In this document: positions 5,035 through 15,227 of the stretch, in pieces | How the letters are laid out: each line of letters begins with the position of its first letter | Numbering within the stretch: the stretch's first letter is position 1 | Assembly: GCA_018222865.1 (NCBI GenBank) | Contig: JAAEZM010000013.1 | Coordinates: forward strand, 1 to 64,000 | Direction: 5' to 3' | DNA from: Alphaproteobacteria bacterium | Lineage (GTDB): Bacteria > Pseudomonadota > Alphaproteobacteria > Caulobacterales > Maricaulaceae | DNA length: 64,000 nt | Notes under the pieces: generated by a model | The model's input: only the letters and a program-made list of their open reading frames with translations | The model's database searches: none | Told to the model about the DNA's origin: nothing | Made by a program: the position numbers and the translations under genes

Positions 5035-5832
5035 TTAAATAGTCACATCCACGTCGCGTACAACACGGCAAAGCGTCACAACACCCACACAGGCTGCTCC
5101 CGAATTCTTGATCATGCGGCAGCACGCGCTCACCGTCGCCCCGGTGGTGAATACATCATCGACCAGAATGACCTGGCGTCCGGCCAGGCGCTCCGGGCGC
5201 CGGACAGCGAAGGCACCGGCGATATTCCGCCTGCGCCCCTTGGTCCCGCGCCCGGCCTGGCTGGGCGTGCGGCGCTTGCGGTAAAGCGAACCGGTCTCGA
5301 CGGGACATCCCAATTCATGCCCGAGCGCCTGGGCCAAAAGGGCAGCCTGGTTATAGCGTCGCGATAAAAGTCGCATCCAGTGCAGCGGGACGGGGACAAG
5401 CACGGCATCCTCTTGCACCAGACCGTCCAGGCTGCGCAGCATCCATCGCGCGAAGACATTGAGCATGTCGCGCCGGTCGGCGTTCTTCAGGCCGAGCACC
5501 AGGGGTTTGACCGGATCATCATAGACCAGCGGCGCGCGCAACCAGTCAAAACGCGGAGGCTGGGCAATACACGATGCGCATAAAAGCCCGTCCTCGCCTG
5601 CACCCGCGGCTTCATAGGCGAAGGGCAAACCGCAGGACCGGCAACAGGGCGGCGCAATGAAATCCAGCTTGGCCCAGCCCTCGGGCGATAAATGTCCAGC
5701 CCGGTCCACCGGTACGTGTTCCAAGGGACATTCCGGCGGCCACAGCAGGCGCGCCATGAAATCGACAGCGCCATGGGCCTTTTTATCGCGCAAAGATCGC
5801 GTATATCCGGGATATGGCTGTTGATCCTTCAT
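5035..5832 (-). CDS. comF: ComF family phosphoribosyltransferase-like protein
   Basis: ComF-type protein with an N-terminal cysteine module and a C-terminal phosphoribosyltransferase fold; in naturally competent bacteria ComF takes part in DNA uptake. Seen here: LLWPPECPLEH, the paired CRSCG and CASC zinc-ribbon-like cysteines, and the PRPP-loop motif VILVDDVFTTGATV near the C-terminus. The start is uncertain. The ATG at 5832 gives the usual N-terminal length but overlaps the divergent methyltransferase by 19 bases; the ATG at 5757 avoids overlap but cuts the N-terminus close to LLWPP; a further ATG lies at 5895. It is the first gene of the run through grxC to DUF1178. Confidence 0.85.
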   Translation of the reverse strand: MKDQQPYPGYTRSLRDKKAHGAVDFMARLLWPPECPLEHVPVDRAGHLSPEGWAKLDFIAPPCCRSCGLPFAYEAAGAGEDGLLCASCIAQPPRFDWLRAPLVYDDPVKPLVLGLKNADRRDMLNVFARWMLRSLDGLVQEDAVLVPVPLHWMRLLSRRYNQAALLAQALGHELGCPVETGSLYRKRRTPSQAGRGTKGRRRNIAGAFAVRRPERLAGRQVILVDDVFTTGATVSACCRMIKNSGAACVGVVTLCRVVRDVDVTI

Positions 5833-6791
5833 CCACCCAATCGCGCCCGTCTGCTTCTCTGCCGCCCGCCGGCCTGGCAAGCGATGTGCCGCCAAAACTC
5901 TTCGACCGCGCCTTGCTGCGCCAACGCCGCAATCGCGCTGCGCGCAGTTTAACAGATTACAGCTTTATCGCGCACCGGGCTTTTGACGATATGTGCGACC
6001 GGGTGGAGAGCGTGACCCGCGATTTTGATCGCGCTGTCATCCTGGGAGGTGGCCCAGGCCTGGTCCAGCAACTGACCAAACGTCCTGTTGCCGAAAAAAT
6101 CGGCTGGTGGATGCAATCCGATATCGCCGAAAACGTCGCTGCGGATCTGGGACCGCGCGCCTGCGCGATCGATGAGGAAAACCTGCCCTTTGCGCCGGAG
6201 AGTCTCGACCTTATCCTTGCCCCTCTGGGTCTTCACTGGACCAATGACCTGCCCGGCGTCTTGTCGCAAGTCCGCCTGGCCCTGAAACCTGATGGTTTTT
6301 TTGCGGGCGCACTCCTGGGAGGACAGACCCTCACAGAACTGCGGCGATCCATCATGCAGGCTGAGAGCGAGCTGATGGGTGGGGTCAGCCCACGCGTCTC
6401 GCCATTTGCGGGCACGTTCGACATGGCCGCCTTGCTGCAGCGCGCCGGCCTGGCCATGCCGGTCAGCGATATCGACCGCATCACCGTGCGCTACGACAAT
6501 GCCTTCGCCCTAATGCGGGATCTGCGCGGCATGGGCGAGACATCAATCCTCACCGAACGTCCGCGGCAACCCGCCAGCCGTCGTTTCTTCCAGCGTGTCG
6601 CCGAGATCTATCAGCAAAACCATGCCGATGCAGACGGCCGGATCCGCGCGACCTTTGAAGTCATCCACTTCGCCGGCTGGGCGCCACATCCCGATCAGCC
6701 GCAACCCAAGCGGCCCGGCTCCGCCACGCATTCCCTGGCCAAGGCCCTGGGCGGTGAGGAAGTGTCATTGGATGAAAAGACGGGACGTTAG
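5814..6791 (+). CDS. SAM-dependent methyltransferase-fold protein resembling NDUFAF5 (complex I assembly factor)
   Basis: Class I methyltransferase fold with a loose SAM motif, AVILGGGPGLVQQ (about 74-86). Several segments recall mitochondrial NDUFAF5, which modifies an arginine in a complex I subunit: NDLPGVLSQVRLALKPDGFF, GGVSPRVSPF, RDLRGMGETS, a C-terminal GWAPHP and KRPGSATHSL. Modification of NADH dehydrogenase is therefore inferred. A GTG at 5886 (giving M-P-P-K-L-F-D-R) is a plausible shorter start that would remove the overlap with comF; the ATG at 5814 has a poor ribosome-binding site. BioC-type methyltransferases are the main alternative. Confidence 0.8.
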   Translation: MAVDPSSTQSRPSASLPPAGLASDVPPKLFDRALLRQRRNRAARSLTDYSFIAHRAFDDMCDRVESVTRDFDRAVILGGGPGLVQQLTKRPVAEKIGWWMQSDIAENVAADLGPRACAIDEENLPFAPESLDLILAPLGLHWTNDLPGVLSQVRLALKPDGFFAGALLGGQTLTELRRSIMQAESELMGGVSPRVSPFAGTFDMAALLQRAGLAMPVSDIDRITVRYDNAFALMRDLRGMGETSILTERPRQPASRRFFQRVAEIYQQNHADADGRIRATFEVIHFAGWAPHPDQPQPKRPGSATHSLAKALGGEEVSLDEKTGR

Positions 6792-6868
6792 ACGCGTGGC
6801 GGATTTTCAACGCCCCTCAGAAATCGCGTTCTCATGATGCGCATCGGGCGCAAGCCTGTAAGCGCTGA

Positions 6869-7054
6869 TTAGGACCCGTCCGCGCCGGTGGCGAATTGCA
6901 CACCGTCAAACCAGCCGAAAACATTTCCGCCAATGGCCTGCCAGGCCGCTACCGAGACGACCGAAACAAAAACGGCGATCAGGCCGTATTCAATGGCTGT
7001 TGCGCCACGCTCATCGCGCCAGAAGCGCTGCATCAGTCCGGTCGCTTTCATCAC
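6869..7054 (-). CDS. Flp family type IVb pilin
   Basis: Small (60-61 residue) prepilin of the Flp/Tad class. It has the short basic leader and the invariant GATAIEYGLIA motif (about 18-28), in which processing follows the glycine and E+5 and Y+6 are kept, and then one hydrophobic helix. GTG at 7054 and ATG at 7051 are adjacent possible starts; GGGAGG sits 6 and 9 bases ahead of them. That ribosome-binding site lies just inside the mutT stop, so translation after mutT on one transcript is likely. No tad secretion genes are in the window, so it is an orphan pilin or is served by a tad locus elsewhere. Confidence 0.85.
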   Translation of the reverse strand: MMKATGLMQRFWRDERGATAIEYGLIAVFVSVVSVAAWQAIGGNVFGWFDGVQFATGADGS

Positions 7055-7065
7055 AGGCGCCCTCC

Positions 7066-7482
7066 CTATAGGCGGTCCCTCAACTCGGCCGCCAGAGGAA
7101 GATCCGCTGCCGGCATCTGATAATCACGCAGGCGCTCTTTGCGCACCCATTTGATCTCCTGCCCCTCTACCGGTTGTGGGAAACCATCCCAGGTCCGGCA
7201 CAGGAATAAGGTCATGACGATATGAAAATCGTCATAGGGGTGAGACACGAACGCGAACGGGTGAAGGCAGGTCTTGCACGGTTCCACCATCAATTCTTCG
7301 CGCAGCTCGCGCACCACGGTCTGCTCGGGCGTTTCACCGGGCTCGATCTTGCCGCCGGGAAACTCCCATAACCCCGCCATCGGCTTACCTTCAGGCCGCT
7401 TGGCGATCAGAATGCGTTTATCCGCATCCAATAGCGCGCAGGCGGCGACATAGAGGACCGGCTTTGAGGCCTTAGAGGTCAT
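7066..7482 (-). CDS. mutT: MutT-type Nudix hydrolase (probable 8-oxo-dGTP diphosphatase)
   Basis: Hydrolyses oxidised nucleoside triphosphates to limit mutation. The Nudix box runs from G44 through about residue 66 and includes GKIEPGE and VRELREEL with all acidic metal ligands. The upstream GLWEFPGG is typical of MutT and NudG proteins. 138 residues is normal. It lies 55 bases downstream of the SurA-like gene and 11 bases ahead of the Flp pilin, all on the minus strand. I recall argJ standing near mutT in some relatives; it is absent here. Confidence 0.88.
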   Translation of the reverse strand: MTSKASKPVLYVAACALLDADKRILIAKRPEGKPMAGLWEFPGGKIEPGETPEQTVVRELREELMVEPCKTCLHPFAFVSHPYDDFHIVMTLFLCRTWDGFPQPVEGQEIKWVRKERLRDYQMPAADLPLAAELRDRL

Positions 7483-7537
7483 AGTGGACCAACTCCCTTA
7501 AAATGAGGTGGAAGAACACGGTTACGCAGGACTTAAC

Positions 7538-8458
7538 TTATTGTGGCGGAACGTCATCTTCCGGCTCGTCCGCCGCCAGCTCGGCAAGCGGCATATCGAT
7601 CAGGGTGATGCTGGCGCCGTCGCGAAGCTCTGCTACCAAGTCCACCAGGCGGTCAAACTTGTAGAATTCCTCGATCCGCGGCCGCAAGACTTCGAAGGAG
7701 GGTGGCGGCTGCCGACGCCGGTCCTCGACCTTGAGGATGTGCCAGCCAAAAGCGGTCTGAAACGGGGGCGACATCTCACCTTCTTCCAGACCAAAGGCGA
7801 TCGCGCCAAAGGGATCTGCAATGCCGGAACGGGTGAAATAGCCCAAATCACCGCCTTCAAGGCGGGTGGCCGAGTCCAGGCTGATGCGGATCGCCAAGGC
7901 CGCGAAGTCCGTACCGTCGACCAAGAGTGCCATCGCGGCATCGGCTTCTTCCTGCGTATCCACGAGGATATGGCGTGCGCGCACCTCATCGCCCAGAGCG
8001 ATCAGCTGGACCTGCTCATCATAAATCCTCCGGATTGCATCTTCAGTGGTGGCGTCAGTCAGTACTTCATCGACAAGAACATTGGACAGGATCCGCTCTT
8101 GCGCGTGCGCCATTTGCCGACGCGCTTCCTCGGACTGGTGCAGCCCTCGCGCCCTCGCTTCAATTGCCAAGAGGCGCTGGTCAATCAGCTCTTCGCGGAT
8201 ACGTTCGAAATCCGTCAATGCTATTTCGCCGGAGCTCTCCCGCTCAGACTGTTGCGCCTCGAACTCCCGCAGAATATCGGACCGGCGGATCACGCTGCCA
8301 TTAACCCGGGCAATCACCGGATCTGCCGTTTCCGGGTCAAGAACCTGCGGATCCGGGTCAACAGCTTCGAGCGTACGGCGAGGCTCGGGGCCGCATGCGA
8401 CAATTAACGTCGCCAAGAGCAGCACACCGAATGTGCGAAAAAGTGTCGCAATTATCAT
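7538..8458 (-). CDS. Peptidyl-prolyl isomerase, SurA/PrsA-like parvulin lipoprotein
   Basis: Probable envelope foldase for secreted and outer-membrane proteins. The N-terminus is a lipoprotein signal with lipobox LIVAC and C22 as the lipidated residue. A SurA-like helical chaperone region follows, then a parvulin domain (about 160-255) containing VRARHILVDTQEEAD, GGDLGYFTRSGI and FGWHILKVED. The tail is acidic and proline-containing. It is divergent from secA across 168 bases, so preprotein translocase and a periplasmic folding factor share a control region. Confidence 0.9.
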   Translation of the reverse strand: MIIATLFRTFGVLLLATLIVACGPEPRRTLEAVDPDPQVLDPETADPVIARVNGSVIRRSDILREFEAQQSERESSGEIALTDFERIREELIDQRLLAIEARARGLHQSEEARRQMAHAQERILSNVLVDEVLTDATTEDAIRRIYDEQVQLIALGDEVRARHILVDTQEEADAAMALLVDGTDFAALAIRISLDSATRLEGGDLGYFTRSGIADPFGAIAFGLEEGEMSPPFQTAFGWHILKVEDRRRQPPPSFEVLRPRIEEFYKFDRLVDLVAELRDGASITLIDMPLAELAADEPEDDVPPQ

Positions 8459-8501
8459 CGCTTAGAGCCCTTCTTGCACGCATGCCAGCCGCGCCGCTCG
8501 A

Positions 8502-8530
8502 TTGACACGTTCTGCCCCCATCCTTAAGTC
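8502..8530 (+). promoter_or_regulatory. Possible secA promoter
   Basis: TTGACA at 8502-8507 is followed after 16 bases by TTAAGT at 8524-8529. The -35 match is perfect, the -10 match weak. It is the best sigma-70-like candidate I see in the interval between the SurA-like gene and secA, but the leader to the secA ATG would be about 90 bases. Confidence 0.3.
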
Positions 8531-8626
8531 AGCTCAAGGTTTCAAAGCAATGCCAGCGTCTGTGCTATTCGTGAACGCGTGTGCGCACAGCCAGCTTGGC
8601 CCAATTGGATTTAAAAGCACAAGCTC

Positions 8627-11488
8627 ATGCTCTCCATCGCCCGCAAACTCTTCGGCACCGAGAATGACCGCAAACTGCGCCGCATGCGCCCGCTGGTCGA
8701 GAAGATCAATGCGCTAGAGCCCGATTTCGAAACGCTCTCAGACGAAGCGCTGGCCGGCAAGACGGTCGAGTTCCGCGAACGTCTGGAAAAGGGCGAGAAG
8801 CTGGACGCGCTTCTGCCCGAGGCTTTCGCCGCGGTCCGCGAAGCAGCCAAGCGCGCCCTCGGCCTTCGCCCCTATGATGTCCAGCTTATGGGCGGCATGG
8901 TGCTGAATGACGGCTCCATCGCTGAAATGAAAACCGGTGAGGGTAAAACGCTTGTCGCCACCCTGCCCTCCTATCTCAACGCTCTGCCCGGCAAGGGCGT
9001 CCACGTGGTCACGGTCAATGATTACCTGGCCAAGCGTGACGCGGAATGGATGGGCAAAGTTTTCGCGAAGCTTGGCATGACGACCGGTGTTGTGGCCCCC
9101 GGCATACCGGATCCGGATCGCCGCGCGGCCTATGCCTGTGACGTCACCTATGCCACCAATAACGAGCTCGGCTTCGATTATCTGCGCGATAATATGAAGT
9201 ACACGACGGACGAAATGGTTCAGCGCGGTCACGCCTATGCCATCGTCGACGAGGTCGACTCCATCCTGATCGATGAAGCGCGCACGCCATTGATCATTTC
9301 CGGTCAAACGGAAGACAAGACCGAATTCTACAAGACGATTGATGCCCTCATCCCGCTGATGGATGAGGAGTGCTATGAAGTCGATGAAAAGGCGCGCTCC
9401 ATCCTCCTGACCGAGGAAGGCAATGAGGAAATCGAGCGCATCCTCAAGGAACGCGAGCTGATTGATCCGGAACTGGATCTGTATGACGTCGACAACATCG
9501 CCACGGTCCACCATGTGAACCAGGCGCTGAAAGCGCATAAAATCTTCCAGCGCGACAAGGATTACATCGTCAAGGAAGACCAGGTCGTCCTGATTGACGA
9601 ATTCACCGGCCGCATGATGCCGGGCCGCCGCCTGTCCGATGGACTCCACCAGGCCCTCGAAGCGAAGGAAGGCACGGCGATCCAGCCGGAGAACCAGACC
9701 CTCGCCTCGGTCACCTTCCAGAACTATTTCCGCCTCTATGGCAAGCTGTCGGGTATGACCGGTACGGCTGCGACGGAAGCGGAAGAATTCATGTCGATCT
9801 ACAAGCTCGGCGTGGTCGAAATCCCGACCAATAAGCCGATTGCTCGTATCGATAATGAGGATGAAGTTTACCGGACATTCGACGAGAAATATGCGGCTAT
9901 CATCGACGATATTGTCGATTGCCAGGAGCGCGGACAGCCCGTTCTCGTGGGGACCGCCTCGATCGAGAAGTCGGAAATTCTCTCCAAGCTCTTGAGCGAC
10001 AAGAACACGTTCAAGAAAGCCCTGGGTCACCTTTATCCCAAGGATGAAGCAGAGCGCGAAGAGAAGTTTGAAAAAGGCGGCCGCCCGGAGGCCCGTCTCC
10101 TGCCGGAGATGATCAAGCTCTTCCCGATTGAGCACCAGGTTCTCAACGCGCGTTATCACGAAGAAGAAGCGGGCATTGTTGCACAGGCCGGTATTCCCGG
10201 TGCGGTGACGATCGCCACGAATATGGCTGGCCGCGGGACCGATATCCAGCTCGGCGGCAATGTCGATATGCTTCTCGGTGATTGGGTCGAGGCTCAAAAG
10301 GCCGCAGGCAAAGAACCGACCGAGGCAGAGACGGCTGAACGCCGCGAAGCCGTGGCCGGCGAAGTGGCTGCCCGCAAGCAGCAAGCACTGGATGCCGGTG
10401 GTCTCTACGTTCTGGCGACTGAGCGCCATGAGAGCCGCCGCATCGATAATCAGCTGCGCGGCCGTACAGGTCGTCAAGGCGATCCGGGTCGGTCGAAATT
10501 CTTCATCTCCGTACAAGATGACCTCTTGCGCATTTTCGCGCCGGAACGTCTGGACGGCATCATGAAGACACTGGGGATGAAGGAAGGCGAAGCCATCCAG
10601 CACCCATGGATGTCAAAAGCGCTGGAGACCTCTCAGAAAAAGGTCGAGCAGCGAAACTTCGACATTCGTAAGAACGTCCTCAAATACGATGATGTGATGA
10701 ATGATCAGCGTAAGGCGATCTTCGAACAGCGCATCGATTTCATGACCTCAGATGATGTCGCCGACGTCATCAAGGATATGCGTCAGAACACGATCGAGGA
10801 TATGGTCGAAACCCATATTCCGCCAAAAGCCTATGCCGATCAGTGGGATGCAGAGGGGCTGCAAAAGGAAGTCAAGGAAACCTTCAATCTCGATCTGCCT
10901 GTCGTGGACTGGGCTGCCGAGGAAGGTATCGCCGATGAAGAGATCCGCGAGCGCCTGCTCAGCGAAGCTGACAAGGCTTATGCCGAGAAGGCCGCAAATG
11001 CGGGTCCGGATCTGATGCGCCGGATCGAGAAATCCATCCTGCTTCAGGCGATTGATGTGAACTGGCGTGAGCATCTTCAAAACCTCGACGCCATGCGCTC
11101 CATGATCGGGCTTCGCTCCTATGCCCAGCGAAACCCGCTCAACGAGTTCAAGACCGAGGCCTTCACAGCCTTTGAACGCATGATGGATAATCTGCGTTCG
11201 GAAGTGACGCGCCAGCTGATGCTCATCCGCTTCGAACGCGCTCCGGAAATGCCCAAAGCACCGGAAGGCATGAAGGAAACCCATATCGACCCGCGGACTG
11301 GCAGCAATGAAATGGATGCTCCGTCGGCGCCGCCCGCCGCGCCGCGTGTCGCTCCAACCCTGCGCCGAACGAATGCGCCGCTCGACCCGACCAAGCCGGA
11401 AACCTGGGGCCGTGTGCAGCGCAATGCCCTGTGCCCGTGCGGATCTGGCAAGAAGTACAAGCACTGCCACGGCGCTCTGAAGGCCTAA
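8627..11488 (+). CDS. secA: SecA, preprotein translocase ATPase
   Basis: ATP-driven motor that pushes unfolded preproteins through SecYEG. Visible parts: Walker A with GEGKT at about 104-108, Walker [19 protein letters not shown] (about 207-224), helicase motif [23 protein letters not shown] with [20 protein letters not shown], and a C-terminal SEC-C zinc motif [13 protein letters not shown] that binds SecB and phospholipid. 953 residues is full length. No clear Shine-Dalgarno precedes the ATG. The GNAT gene begins 4 bases after its stop. Confidence 0.97.
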
Positions 11489-12025: not shown

Positions 12026-12964
12026 TCAGAAGTCAGTGATGTCGCTGACCGAAACGGAGTTGCCAATGGCCGCTGCCGTCGCAGAGACATTGCCGGTGAT
12101 GTCGGTGATCGTCACATTGGCCTCAGCGCCGGTGAAGGCATTGTTCAGCTGTGTGGAGTTGATCTGGACATCCGCCGTGGCCGGCAGGGTGGATACACTC
12201 AGCGAGTTGGAGATTGCGGCGGTCGTCGAGGTGACATCGCCAACCACATCATCAACGCCGACATTTGAATAGGCGCGCGGGTCGATATTGGTGGTCTGGT
12301 AATTGTTCACATTCGCCCAGTCCGTTGCCTCAACTTCAAAAGACGCGGAATTGGCGATGGCCGCAGAGGTCAGCGAGACCTCGCCCGTGACATCATCAAT
12401 ATGACCGTTCAGCTCGGAAACCGCATCACCGCGGAAGAACTGACGGTTATTGAGGTTGAGGCCTTCACCCGCCGCTTCGACTGAAAGCGAGTTGCCAATC
12501 GCCGCTGCTGTGCCGCTGACATCGCCGACAACATCATCAACGCCCAGATTGAGATCAGCATTGAAATTGCCAATCGCGCGCTGGTAGTTGTTCAGGGAAC
12601 CATATTCGTCTGCATTGATCACAGCACTGGCTGAGTTGCCGATGGCTGCAGCCGTGGCAGAAACCTCACCGACAACATCATCAATATTGGCGTTCAGCTC
12701 GGCATCAGAACCGCGGCCCGTGTACTGGCTGTTATTGATCTGCAGGTCGCCGGCAATGTCAGCCGAGAACGAGTTGTTGATTGCAGCGGAGGTCAAGGAC
12801 ACATCGCCATTGATATTGTCGATCTCGGAATTGAGCTGAGCGCGCGCCTGCGCCCAATTGCCTTGAACATTATTGATGGTCTGACTTTGAGCACTGGCTG
12901 CCCCGGCGGTACCGATGATGGCCAATACGGAACAAGCTCCCATGCAAAGGGTCTTAATCGTCAT
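12026..12964 (-). CDS. Secreted protein of six ~48-residue repeats, candidate holdfast-attachment/fibre protein
   Basis: No named family recognised with certainty. The ATG at 12964 gives 312 residues with a signal peptide ending GAASA at residue 25. The mature chain is six tandem units of about 46-50 residues, each opening with an NN-x-Q type segment and closing with a version of DDVxGEVSxTAAAIxNSxS. Units 3 and 5 are more alike, as are 2 and 4. The chain is rich in Asn, Ala, Ser and Asp and has no Cys after the signal. It is divergent from hfaA-hfaB, whose Caulobacter versions work with HfaD, also a secreted, repeat-containing, polymer-forming protein. HfaA carries a similar ALGNSVNI segment. 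A role as fibre or adhesin exported with HfaB is inferred. Confidence 0.7.
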   Translation of the reverse strand: MTIKTLCMGACSVLAIIGTAGAASAQSQTINNVQGNWAQARAQLNSEIDNINGDVSLTSAAINNSFSADIAGDLQINNSQYTGRGSDAELNANIDDVVGEVSATAAAIGNSASAVINADEYGSLNNYQRAIGNFNADLNLGVDDVVGDVSGTAAAIGNSLSVEAAGEGLNLNNRQFFRGDAVSELNGHIDDVTGEVSLTSAAIANSASFEVEATDWANVNNYQTTNIDPRAYSNVGVDDVVGDVTSTTAAISNSLSVSTLPATADVQINSTQLNNAFTGAEANVTITDITGNVSATAAAIGNSVSVSDITDF

Positions 12965-13552
12965 CTTTTGTCTCCTTCCAACGATTAGGATCGCCGGTCG
13001 GATCCCCCTCCCGGCTCGCTGTAAAAGCCGCAAGCGAGACACCAGAGAGACGAGGCGCGAAGCGTTAAGGTTTACCGGGGGTAAATTTCTTCCATCGCAT
13101 TCAAAACAAATACGATTTTCTGCCCTAACGAAGCTGGTTCGTGAACAGGGTTAAAAGCTTCAAATTTTCACGTCAAAATTAACCGTTTTTTTGGCACAAG
13201 CGGCGGCTCGAATTCCCGCTCTGGCACGGCTTATAGTTGCCAGAATCTTAATATGCGCGCCATGCCAAACCCGGGCGTATCAGGAATTTCTCTTTTCAAT
13301 TCAAAGGGGAAATAATTTTATGCGCTTCGCGGCGAGGGAGACAATTTAATTAGAATTTTAGTCAAATCAGAATCGTGGGGCGCGAAGATTTACTGAAAAC
13401 TAACCTTAACAACACCTTGTAATACGGCATAACCCCCTGTTTTTATTAAAATTGAAAATATTGCGCTGAAATTGGCACGGCGCATGGCCTCCGCGTTGCA
13501 ATTCCCTTTTTCGAAAACCGCGAAATCGCCATCAGGCGAGAGGGAGCGCAGC
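12965..13552. promoter_or_regulatory. AT-rich divergent control region between the repeat protein and hfaA
   Basis: About 590 bases without a credible gene, much more AT-rich than its surroundings. It must hold promoters for both directions. Two sites approach the CtrA consensus TTAA-N7-TTAA: 13346-13360 (TTAA, seven bases, TTTA) and 13406-13420 (TTAA, seven bases, TTGT). Neither is perfect, so they are only candidates. AGGGAG lies just before the hfaA start. Confidence 0.45.
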
Positions 13553-13990
13553 ATGGAGCGCGAGATGAAATTTGGACCTTATATAATAGGCAGCTGTGCC
13601 GTTCTTGTTTTGACGACACCGGCACTCAGCCAGAGCGCACCGCAATCAGGCCTGCCGCAAACCCAACCCTATGGCCAAGCGCCGGGCGCGCACGCGCAGC
13701 CCTATGAGCGCCCCGAACGAGACGCCAACGGGAACCGGATCATTATCAATGGACAGCAAGTCGGCGCCGCGCAGACCAATCCTGCGCGTCATGGCGGGTC
13801 GCTGGCCACACGGAGCAATACGACCCTGCCCTCAGGCGGCACTCTGGGTCCACGTGGGGTAACAGCGGTCGCACTGGGCAATAGTGTGAACATCGCGAAC
13901 ACTTACGGCAGTACGATCATAATCAACCAGACCAATAATGCGGACCAGACGGTGAATGTGAACGGTGCGCCGGAAGACGGGGGCAATTGA
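13553..13990 (+). CDS. hfaA: HfaA-like holdfast attachment protein
   Basis: Small secreted protein (145 residues). A signal peptide ends near PALSQ (about residue 26), a Pro/Gln-rich linker follows, and then RDANGNRIIINGQQ. That phrase and the later GVTAVALGNSVNIAN and GSTIIINQTNNADQTVNVNG match my memory of Caulobacter HfaA, a curlin-like protein forming stable multimers that anchor the holdfast. ATG 13553 is preceded by AGGGAG; ATG 13565, twelve bases on, also has GGAG upstream. The hfaB start follows the hfaA stop by one base, so the two are translationally coupled. Confidence 0.78.
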   Translation: MEREMKFGPYIIGSCAVLVLTTPALSQSAPQSGLPQTQPYGQAPGAHAQPYERPERDANGNRIIINGQQVGAAQTNPARHGGSLATRSNTTLPSGGTLGPRGVTAVALGNSVNIANTYGSTIIINQTNNADQTVNVNGAPEDGGN

Positions 13991-13991
13991 G

Positions 13992-15227
13992 ATGCGCCAG
14001 CTGGCTCTCCCCCTCCTCGCCGCACTTGGCTTGACCGCCTGTGCCAGCACGTCCGACCCGAATGAAGTGGTGGAGCATGTGGCCCCGCTTTCTGGAAGCC
14101 CGGTCGTTGAATCGCGAAGTGATTATACCGGAGCACTCCAGTGCCTCGCCGATCATGCCGGACGCCAGCCCTATGCTGCGCCGCGGGTGGCCGTCGGGCA
14201 TATCTCTGACCTCACAGGTGCAGAAGATTACCTCTCCGGTCGTCGTCTGACCCAGGGAGCGACGCTGATGGCCATCACCGCCGCCTCGCAATCAGGCATG
14301 CGGCTGGTGGAGCGCTTCGATATGGGCGTGGTTCAGGTAGAGCTGGACTATGCTCAAAATGGCCTGTTGCGGGACGCACCTGATGTCTTGCGCACGGTGC
14401 AGCGCGGCCAGATGGAAGGGGCAGACCTCTATCTCGTCGGCGGCATTACCGAGTTCAACCCGAATATCCGCTCCAGCGGAACCAATGCCTTCGCCAATAC
14501 CACCGGGGAGACGGGCGGCGCGCTGGCCTTTGGCGGCTCGGAATACATTGTCGATGTCGGGATTGATCTGCGTCTGATTGATGTCCGATCGACCGAAGTG
14601 CTCGCCGTGCGCTCCTTGCGCAAACAGATCCGGGGCCGCGAAGTCGAGGCGGGTATCTATGCCTTCCTGGACGGCACCGTGCTCGATATTGGCGGCGGTG
14701 AACGCGCGCTGGAGCCGGTTCAGACCGCCGTGCGCTCCATGATCGACCGGGCCGTCTTTGAGTTTATGGCCATGCTGTATGATCTGGAATCAGGCTCTTG
14801 CATTGATGGTCGCCCGGCTCAGCCGCGTCAGCAGGCTGCGAGCGCTCCGGCTAGCGCAAGCGCCCAACTGGCCCAGACCCCGCCCCCTGCCAGCTCTGCT
14901 CCGGTTGAAACCCTGCCGCAACCGGCTTTGCCGGAGGCACAATTACCGCCGCCCTCAGGTTATGCGCTTCACCTGGCGTCCCAGCGCACGGTCTGGCACG
15001 TCAATCGTGACTGGCAGGAGCTTCGCGCGGCTTATGCCGATATTCTAGCGGGGCGTGATGGTCGCATCAGCCGGGTTCAACGCTCGGATGAGGGCGTGGT
15101 CTTTCGGCTCCTGGCGGGCAGCTGGCGCACGGAAACCGAAGCCAGCCGGGCCTGTCAGGAAATCCGCCGCCGCGGCGGACAATGCCAGATAACCGCCTTT
15201 GAAGGCATGCCGGTCATGCGATCTTGA
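13992..15227 (+). CDS. hfaB: HfaB-like CsgG-family lipoprotein with a C-terminal SPOR-like domain
   Basis: Outer-membrane lipoprotein with lipobox LTAC and C17 lipidated. The middle of the chain carries the CsgG-type features: RVAVGHISDLTGAEDY near the N-terminus, GADLYLVGGITEFNPN, and GSEYIVDVGIDLRLIDVRST. CsgG forms the curli export channel and HfaB is its holdfast counterpart, needed to export and stabilise HfaA and HfaD. After a Pro/Ala/Gln-rich linker (about 285-320) the last 85 residues look like a SPOR domain: YALHLASQRTVW, VFRLLAGSWRTETEASRACQ and a final RRGGQCQI. SPOR domains bind denuded peptidoglycan, so polar or septal targeting is possible. accA converges from the other side. 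Confidence 0.8.
   Translation: MRQLALPLLAALGLTACASTSDPNEVVEHVAPLSGSPVVESRSDYTGALQCLADHAGRQPYAAPRVAVGHISDLTGAEDYLSGRRLTQGATLMAITAASQSGMRLVERFDMGVVQVELDYAQNGLLRDAPDVLRTVQRGQMEGADLYLVGGITEFNPNIRSSGTNAFANTTGETGGALAFGGSEYIVDVGIDLRLIDVRSTEVLAVRSLRKQIRGREVEAGIYAFLDGTVLDIGGGERALEPVQTAVRSMIDRAVFEFMAMLYDLESGSCIDGRPAQPRQQAASAPASASAQLAQTPPPASSAPVETLPQPALPEAQLPPPSGYALHLASQRTVWHVNRDWQELRAAYADILAGRDGRISRVQRSDEGVVFRLLAGSWRTETEASRACQEIRRRGGQCQITAFEGMPVMRS

Follow-up and report, generated by a model that had tools for sequence, protein, structure and literature searches.

The window analysed here, the whole 64,000-nucleotide stretch from contig JAAEZM010000013.1 of a Maricaulaceae bacterium, carries three genes related to the hfaD, hfaA and hfaB genes of Caulobacter, which we call hfaD2, hfaA2 and hfaB2 (Hfa2 is a name coined in this analysis). 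A first-pass annotation had described a repeat protein divergent from hfaA- and hfaB-like genes, and this layout is borne out by positions, strands and NCBIfam profiles. The same annotation had proposed the repeat protein as a counterpart of HfaD, a proposal that gained support from the HfaD profile, from profile alignment with shuffle controls and from the linkage to hfaB in other genomes. Both the HfaD kinship and the hfaB linkage of the repeat protein are firm.

The hfaD2 gene starts with an ATG at 12964 and ends with a stop codon at 12026-12028 on the minus strand; the list of open reading frames holds a longer frame that begins with GTG, and the ATG was chosen since the signal peptide, recognised by eye, starts there. 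A signal peptide followed by six repeats of about 48 residues had been noticed at first reading, and both were recovered: N[NS]xQ openings occur at residues 31, 77, 125, 172, 220 and 269 (spacing 46-49) and AAxxN[ST] cores at residues 59, 105, 153, 200, 248 and 297, and an ungapped self-comparison gave its best scores at offsets of 95 (220, two units) and 48 (130), the maximum of 300 shuffles being 62. A single regular expression underlies the motif counts, which are too low for diverged relatives. Compared with four relatives, hfaD2 diverges by 0.14-0.24, 0.12-0.17 and 0.51-0.62 at the first, second and third codon positions, the pattern of a conserved coding gene. HfaD2 matches the HfaD profile NF037936 (E 7.8e-8, 32 bits), as do 37 of 37 HfaD2-type proteins at E 0.01 or better. 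When 12 HfaD2-type sequences were aligned by hhalign with 13 canonical HfaD sequences, 258 columns were paired with a probability of 97.2, an E of 3.2e-11 and a score of 83; the maxima were 19.5 for 60 column shuffles and 46.9 for 60 shuffles of 12-column blocks, and the reversed alignment scored 15. By sequence, then, HfaD2 is a six-repeat protein distantly homologous to HfaD.

Table 1. Features of the Hfa2 locus (positions in the window)
Feature	Position	Strand	Basis or remark
hfaD2 (312-aa secreted six-repeat protein, distant HfaD homologue)	12026..12964	-	profiles, repeats, model
HfaD2 signal peptide, residues 1-25	12890..12964	-	by eye; low AlphaFold2 confidence at residues 1-23
Six HfaD2 repeat units, 46-49 residues, N[NS]xQ opening and TAAAIxNS-type core	12029..12874	-	
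Intergenic region hfaD2/hfaA2, 600 bases	12965..13564	.	blocks conserved in three Maricaulis relatives
Sigma-54-type promoter element TGGCCT-N5-TTGCA	13485..13500	+	80 bases before hfaA2 ATG
hfaA2 (141-aa HfaA-like secreted protein)	13565..13990	+	NF037934 E 5.2e-9, under cut-off
One HfaD-type repeat within HfaA2, residues 98-134	13856..13966	+	profile-profile alignment
hfaB2 (411-aa CsgG/HfaB-type lipoprotein exporter, lipobox LTAC)	13992..15227	+	
CsgG domain of HfaB2	14166..14768	+	Pfam
SPOR domain of HfaB2, residues 321-400	14952..15191	+	Pfam, model, Foldseek

The association with hfaB is not peculiar to this genome. At an E of 1e-5 the repeat protein was found in 19 of 150 genomes of the order, and 17 of the 18 other than the source genome have an HfaB-type gene no more than 1 kb from it; in the exception, G093, two contigs end with the repeat gene and the hfaA2-hfaB2 pair, respectively. 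All 17 genomes that have an HfaB under the NCBIfam cut-off fall within these 19, and in the remaining two (G037 and G106) the repeat gene adjoins HfaBs over the cut-off. A scan of public genomes by HfaD2 patterns alone yielded 52 loci, with HfaB in the examined DNA at 42 of them, within 1.4 kb of the repeat gene, and HfaA at 40; these genome and locus counts are raw and uncorrected for relatedness. The co-occurrence with hfaB that the first-pass annotation had expected is thus present. The divergent arrangement that it had suggested looking for in relatives was seen in Maricaulis and kin, and elsewhere D often lies downstream on the same strand. The order is A-B-D, as in the Caulobacter hfaABD operon, in Aquidulcibacter, Phycosocius and Hyphomonas, B-D-A in Aquisalinus and D-A-B-B in Brevundimonas and Caulobacter, and one locus (L117) holds two tandem sets. 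Outside the order we found B-D (Alkalilacustris and a Rhodospirillales MAG, a metagenome-assembled genome), B-D-D (Marinimicrococcus) and A-B-D-D-D (a Myxococcales MAG). Hence, hfaD2-type, hfaA2-type and hfaB2-type genes travel together in many genomes, in varying orders.

Three side observations concern these loci. HfaD-like repeat proteins stand in tandem rows of two or three in the Myxococcales MAG and in Marinimicrococcus flavescens (loci L158, at 5039-9284, L160, L162, L163 and L167), and the family accordingly extends past the Caulobacterales. The D-A-B-B loci of Brevundimonas, Caulobacter and kin (L128, L132, L133, L144, L145, L146, L148 and L154) carry two consecutive HfaB genes, the first of which (five rows, on one tree branch) mostly has an ordinary signal peptide without lipobox and the second a lipobox; a mixed ring of lipidated and unlipidated CsgG-type subunits is conceivable in such operons. 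Lipoboxes were called by a regular expression on starts that are sometimes truncated, and those of L158 and L166 were likely missed. Finally, the Hfa2 exporter of L130, a record titled Maricaulis salignorans, groups with Aquidulcibacter in the HfaB tree, so the label of the record may be wrong.

HfaA2 scored 36.5 bits with the HfaA profile, whose cut-off is 50. The alignment of its HfaD-type unit with one HfaD2 repeat, made with 41 HfaA rows and 37 HfaD2 rows, had a probability of 92.6, an E of 4.7e-7 and a score of 49.5, and two sets of 40 column shuffles reached maxima of 16.9 and 16.2. With canonical HfaD the score was 32.9 and the probability 38, a comparison made without shuffle control. 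HfaA2 is thus an HfaA-like protein that bears one HfaD-type repeat. In Caulobacter, HfaA multimers require HfaD (PMC6707917), and a shared unit would let HfaA2 and HfaD2 stack.

HfaB2 is a CsgG-like protein with a lipobox, read from the sequence, and an added SPOR domain. It matches the HfaB profile NF037935 with an E of 1.8e-83 and 279.8 bits, below the equivalog cut-off of 300 bits, and the CsgG domain PF03783 with an E of 9e-19; in a Foldseek search its model retrieved CsgG structures, 6l7c being the best (E 1.2e-14). The SPOR domain scored 25.6 bits in Pfam (gathering threshold 21), its residues follow the order beta-alpha-beta-beta-alpha-beta with pLDDT above 90 for most of them, and Foldseek related the HfaB2 C-terminus to the RlpA SPOR domain solved with a denuded glycan (E 9e-4). 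The exporters of L116, L121 and L123 likewise exceed the gathering threshold, and both copies of L117 and that of L088 fall under it; the canonical HfaB of the source genome (335 aa) has no SPOR-type C-terminal extension. SPOR domains bind denuded glycans and thereby bring proteins to the septum (PMC6895207), and the domain may place the HfaB2 pore at the septum or the new pole. HfaB2 resembles RlpA, FtsN, DamX and DedD in being an envelope protein whose low-complexity linker leads to a C-terminal SPOR domain, but differs from them in that the domain sits on a CsgG-type exporter and not on a division or cell wall protein.

What fold would the exported repeats adopt? AlphaFold2, which was given 37 HfaD2-type and 37 HfaB-type rows selected from the 52 loci, modelled HfaD2 as all beta (pLDDT 89.9, pTM 0.83), with, as we read it, about three strands per repeat. 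On this model an enzyme fold, the outcome that would have told against the first-pass proposal, was rejected. Weak structural matches of the model were mostly to beta-helical proteins and included the FapC amyloid (9u4u and 9nqd, E 0.27 and 2.8); searched by sequence against PDB chains, HfaD2 had no match under E 0.04. FapC is, as HfaD2 would be, a bacterial secreted all-beta repeat polymer, but HfaD2 shows no significant structural match to it. The exporter of FapC belongs to another family than the CsgG type.

The first-pass annotation had stated that no HfaD gene lies 3′ of hfaB. Locally this holds, because accA, on the opposite strand, occupies that place; for the genome as a whole it does not, since a canonical hfaA-hfaB-hfaD set is present on contig C11, with scores of 70.4, 403.6 and 136.8 bits over the cut-offs of 50, 300 and 100. 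Hfa2 is consequently a second, paralogous module. In the HfaB tree, which was built by a quick method, has no bootstrap and was flagged for long branches, HfaB2 is one of 20 exporters with a linked HfaD2-type gene that group apart from the 16 canonical HfaB. At an E of 0.01, canonical HfaB and HfaB2 are the only two CsgG-family genes of the genome. With the Caulobacter system Hfa2 shares three homologous components, namely a CsgG-type exporter and secreted A and D proteins, and with many Caulobacter-type canonical loci a sigma-54-type element before hfaA. It differs in the sub-cut-off scores of all three proteins, the canonical set alongside, an hfaD2 divergent from A-B, regular 48-residue repeats, the SPOR domain of the exporter and occurrence in some genomes without detectable hfsA- or hfsB-like genes. 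The titles and opening lines of abstracts of a mostly open-access literature yielded no description of a second hfaABD set, of an HfaB with SPOR domain or of a repeat shared by HfaA and HfaD. As a separate observation, genome G072 carries two canonical hfaB genes with equal scores (contig C1, 168404-169165 and 632766-633527; L109 and L110), each beside an hfaA; one pair adjoins a 256-aa HfaD-like protein and the other lies near a canonical hfaD. Drafts related to G072 lack canonical hfaB and have canonical hfaD close to contig ends, which may reflect a collapsed repeat.

The source genome probably belongs to Maricaulis, to judge from its same-genus and closest named relatives. Its Hfa2 set is flanked by secA and a GNAT gene on one side and by accA on the other. 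In two genomes of the same genus, G088 and G054, the matches to GNAT and accA are about 65 and 195 bases apart, which leaves no space for the module, and G118 and G108 have other genes in between, over about 2.9 kb; for G138, G049 and G068 the secA side was outside the stretch read in this comparison. The gap between hfaD2 and hfaA2 has a GC content of 0.475, compared with 0.596 for the window. Blocks within it (13085-13470), such as CAAAACAAATACG, AAAATTAAC and TTTTTATTAAAA, are conserved in four Maricaulis copies, separate from the sigma-54-type element, and are perhaps the hfaD2 promoter and shared operators.

A sigma-54-type element also precedes canonical hfaA in the source genome, by 55 bases. 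With patterns drawn from the sigma-54 consensus, we found a strict match within 250 bases upstream of 14 of 20 A-first operons (16 of 20 with a loose one) and of 5 of 20 D-first operons (10 of 20 loose), and, for 22 of 30 canonical hfaB genes (23 loose), somewhere in the 1000 bases upstream; the background per 250 bases is 0.007 strict and 0.028 loose. The count omits the B-first operons of Aquisalinus, start codons were chosen by us and L150 offered only 122 upstream bases. A survey of the Caulobacterales names rpoN as one of the regulators found absent alongside flagellar and holdfast genes (PMC12700997). Control by CtrA was tried and rejected: its motif TTAA-N7-TTAA is absent from the 600-base gap of the window and from six related gaps, one of which (L117) holds a TTAACCAT-type half-site.

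Taken together, these results make it probable that Hfa2 is a second HfaABD-type module in which HfaB2 exports HfaD2 and HfaA2, which stack as a surface beta-solenoid polymer; export by HfaB2, polymerisation and septal placement are steps that we infer. Caulobacter HfaA and HfaD depend on HfaB to get to the outer membrane, and the exact role of each anchor component is there stated to be unknown (PMC6707917). In the proposed mechanism, Sec would carry HfaA2 and HfaD2 across the inner membrane, and the ring of HfaB2 would let them through the outer membrane in an unfolded state, much as CsgG does for curlin. Once outside, HfaD2 would fold its repeats into beta-solenoid coils with stacked N and Q positions, and HfaA2 would dock with its single matching unit on the exposed edge and aid the end-to-end joining of HfaD2 units into a pore-held polymer. 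In Maricaulis-type copies, binding of the SPOR domain to denuded peptidoglycan would locate the pore at the septum, which becomes the new pole after division. Such a polymer would serve attachment or matrix anchoring, whether it acts as a further holdfast anchor or as a fibre independent of the holdfast.

Several points weigh against this picture. Export and polymers of Hfa2 are predictions from genes and models. HfaA2, HfaB2 and HfaD2 all score under their NCBIfam cut-offs, and with 32 bits for a cut-off of 100 HfaD2 is a homologue and not an equivalog by that rule. The HfaD2 model matched no solved structure at E 0.001 and, since AlphaFold2 is prone to confident solenoids on repeat sequences, the all-beta model is support and not proof; confidence in the HfaB2 model is moderate (pLDDT 75.6, pTM 0.52). 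SPOR reached E 0.01 in just 5 of 37 exporters, and was not among the Pfam matches for those of L118, L125, L127 and L129. Ten of the 52 loci lack HfaB in the examined DNA (L119, L120, L122, L143, L152, L157, L160, L161, L162 and L167); six of these repeat genes lie within 0.7 kb of a contig end and L160 is a whole 6.4-kb contig, but L120, L122 and L162 are inside contigs, their genomes having an HfaB-linked copy elsewhere (L124, L126 and L163). Among 15 divergent hfaD genes none has the strict sigma-54 element; the loose one precedes two, including that of the window, and expression of hfaD2 may therefore differ from that of hfaA2-hfaB2. Lastly, the genome encodes a secreted 188-aa protein with four curlin repeats (L183, contig C13, 2428-2994, minus strand; Pfam E 5.4e-22), which has no CsgG of its own and would be an alternative or added cargo of HfaB2. 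A 185-aa frame beside it has no Pfam match and is a candidate CsgH-like gene.

Could Hfa2, then, be no separate fibre system but a further anchor, redundant or stage-specific, for the holdfast polysaccharide that canonical HfaABD also anchors? The homology of Hfa2 to HfaABD and the sigma-54-type element common to hfaA2 and canonical hfaA would fit this explanation. To follow the holdfast we used the HfsA- and HfsB-like proteins of the source genome as queries (E 1e-10 and 1e-5), because Poly_export (PF02563) proved too general a marker, with matches in 23 of 23 genomes. These proteins, encoded at L170, we take to be HfsA- and HfsB-like from the Caulobacter gene order hfsDABC and from our own reading; NCBIfam placed them, under cut-offs, as chain-length-determinant-like and CpaE-like. 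The markers detected G116, taken as Caulobacter (1.3e-44 and 2.4e-10), and are imperfect, as G138 and G019 match both queries without having any HfaB. Of the 19 genomes that encode the repeat protein, 15 matched both markers, as a same-holdfast anchor would predict. Nevertheless, the other four (G069, G119, G031 and G120) carry the module with neither an HfsA- nor an HfsB-like match, and their single HfaB is the diverged one, with no canonical hfaB; outside the order, G150-G153 gave no match in the HfsB search, HfsA having not been tried there. The module can thus exist without detectable holdfast secretion genes and is not strictly tied to the holdfast. We regard service to the same holdfast as possible but rather unlikely.

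An improbable alternative is that HfaB2 mainly exports other cargo, such as the curlin-repeat protein of contig C13 (genome G000), and that HfaD2 is released through canonical HfaB or in some other way. With just two CsgG-family genes in the genome, the exporter of that protein may indeed be HfaB2 or canonical HfaB, but relatives of hfaD2 are tightly linked to HfaB; curlin accompaniment was not surveyed in other genomes. That HfaD2 adjoins hfaAB by chance and is a surface or matrix protein of other descent, as its opposite strand and the propensity of N-, S- and A-rich repeats for spurious profile matches might suggest, is made very improbable by the shuffle controls, by the linkage across many genomes and gene orders and by the HfaD profile match of every HfaD2-type protein. 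An ordinary curli (csg) operon, suggested by the CsgG-family exporter and the N/Q-containing repeats, is scarcely credible, since the HfaA, HfaB and HfaD profiles fit better and the units have about 48 residues; it was rejected on the missing curlin repeats and the missing CsgF.

Curli and Hfa2 both have a CsgG-fold exporter and repeat subunits with expected stacked N and Q positions, and in both the number of repeats varies (PMC3521004 for curli). Pfam detected no curlin repeat (PF07012) in HfaA2, HfaB2 or HfaD2 at E up to 10, no CsgF was found in the source genome, the one genome searched, and the Hfa2 unit is twice as long as that of curli, for which X6QXGX2NX10 has been given (PMC3521004). 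According to the same survey, CsgF is absent from half of the alphaproteobacterial genera; its main text contains no word starting with Caulobacter, hfa or Maricaulis.

A wider reading is plausible, if not quite probable: HfaABD would be one branch of a larger, holdfast-independent class of CsgG-dependent beta-solenoid systems, with B as the pore, D as the fibre and a one-repeat A as nucleator or cap, and in Maricaulis the SPOR domain would steer the pore to the division site and so put the polymer at the newborn pole. Fusing a SPOR domain to an exporter of surface polymers would be a simple means of coupling adhesin secretion to cell division. The paralogous set, with its clean, regular repeats, the unit that its HfaA and HfaD have in common and its homologues in genomes where no hfs genes are detectable, offers a direct handle on Hfa function; the core job of such systems may be to assemble, coupled to a pore, a beta-repeat polymer of which holdfast anchoring is one use.

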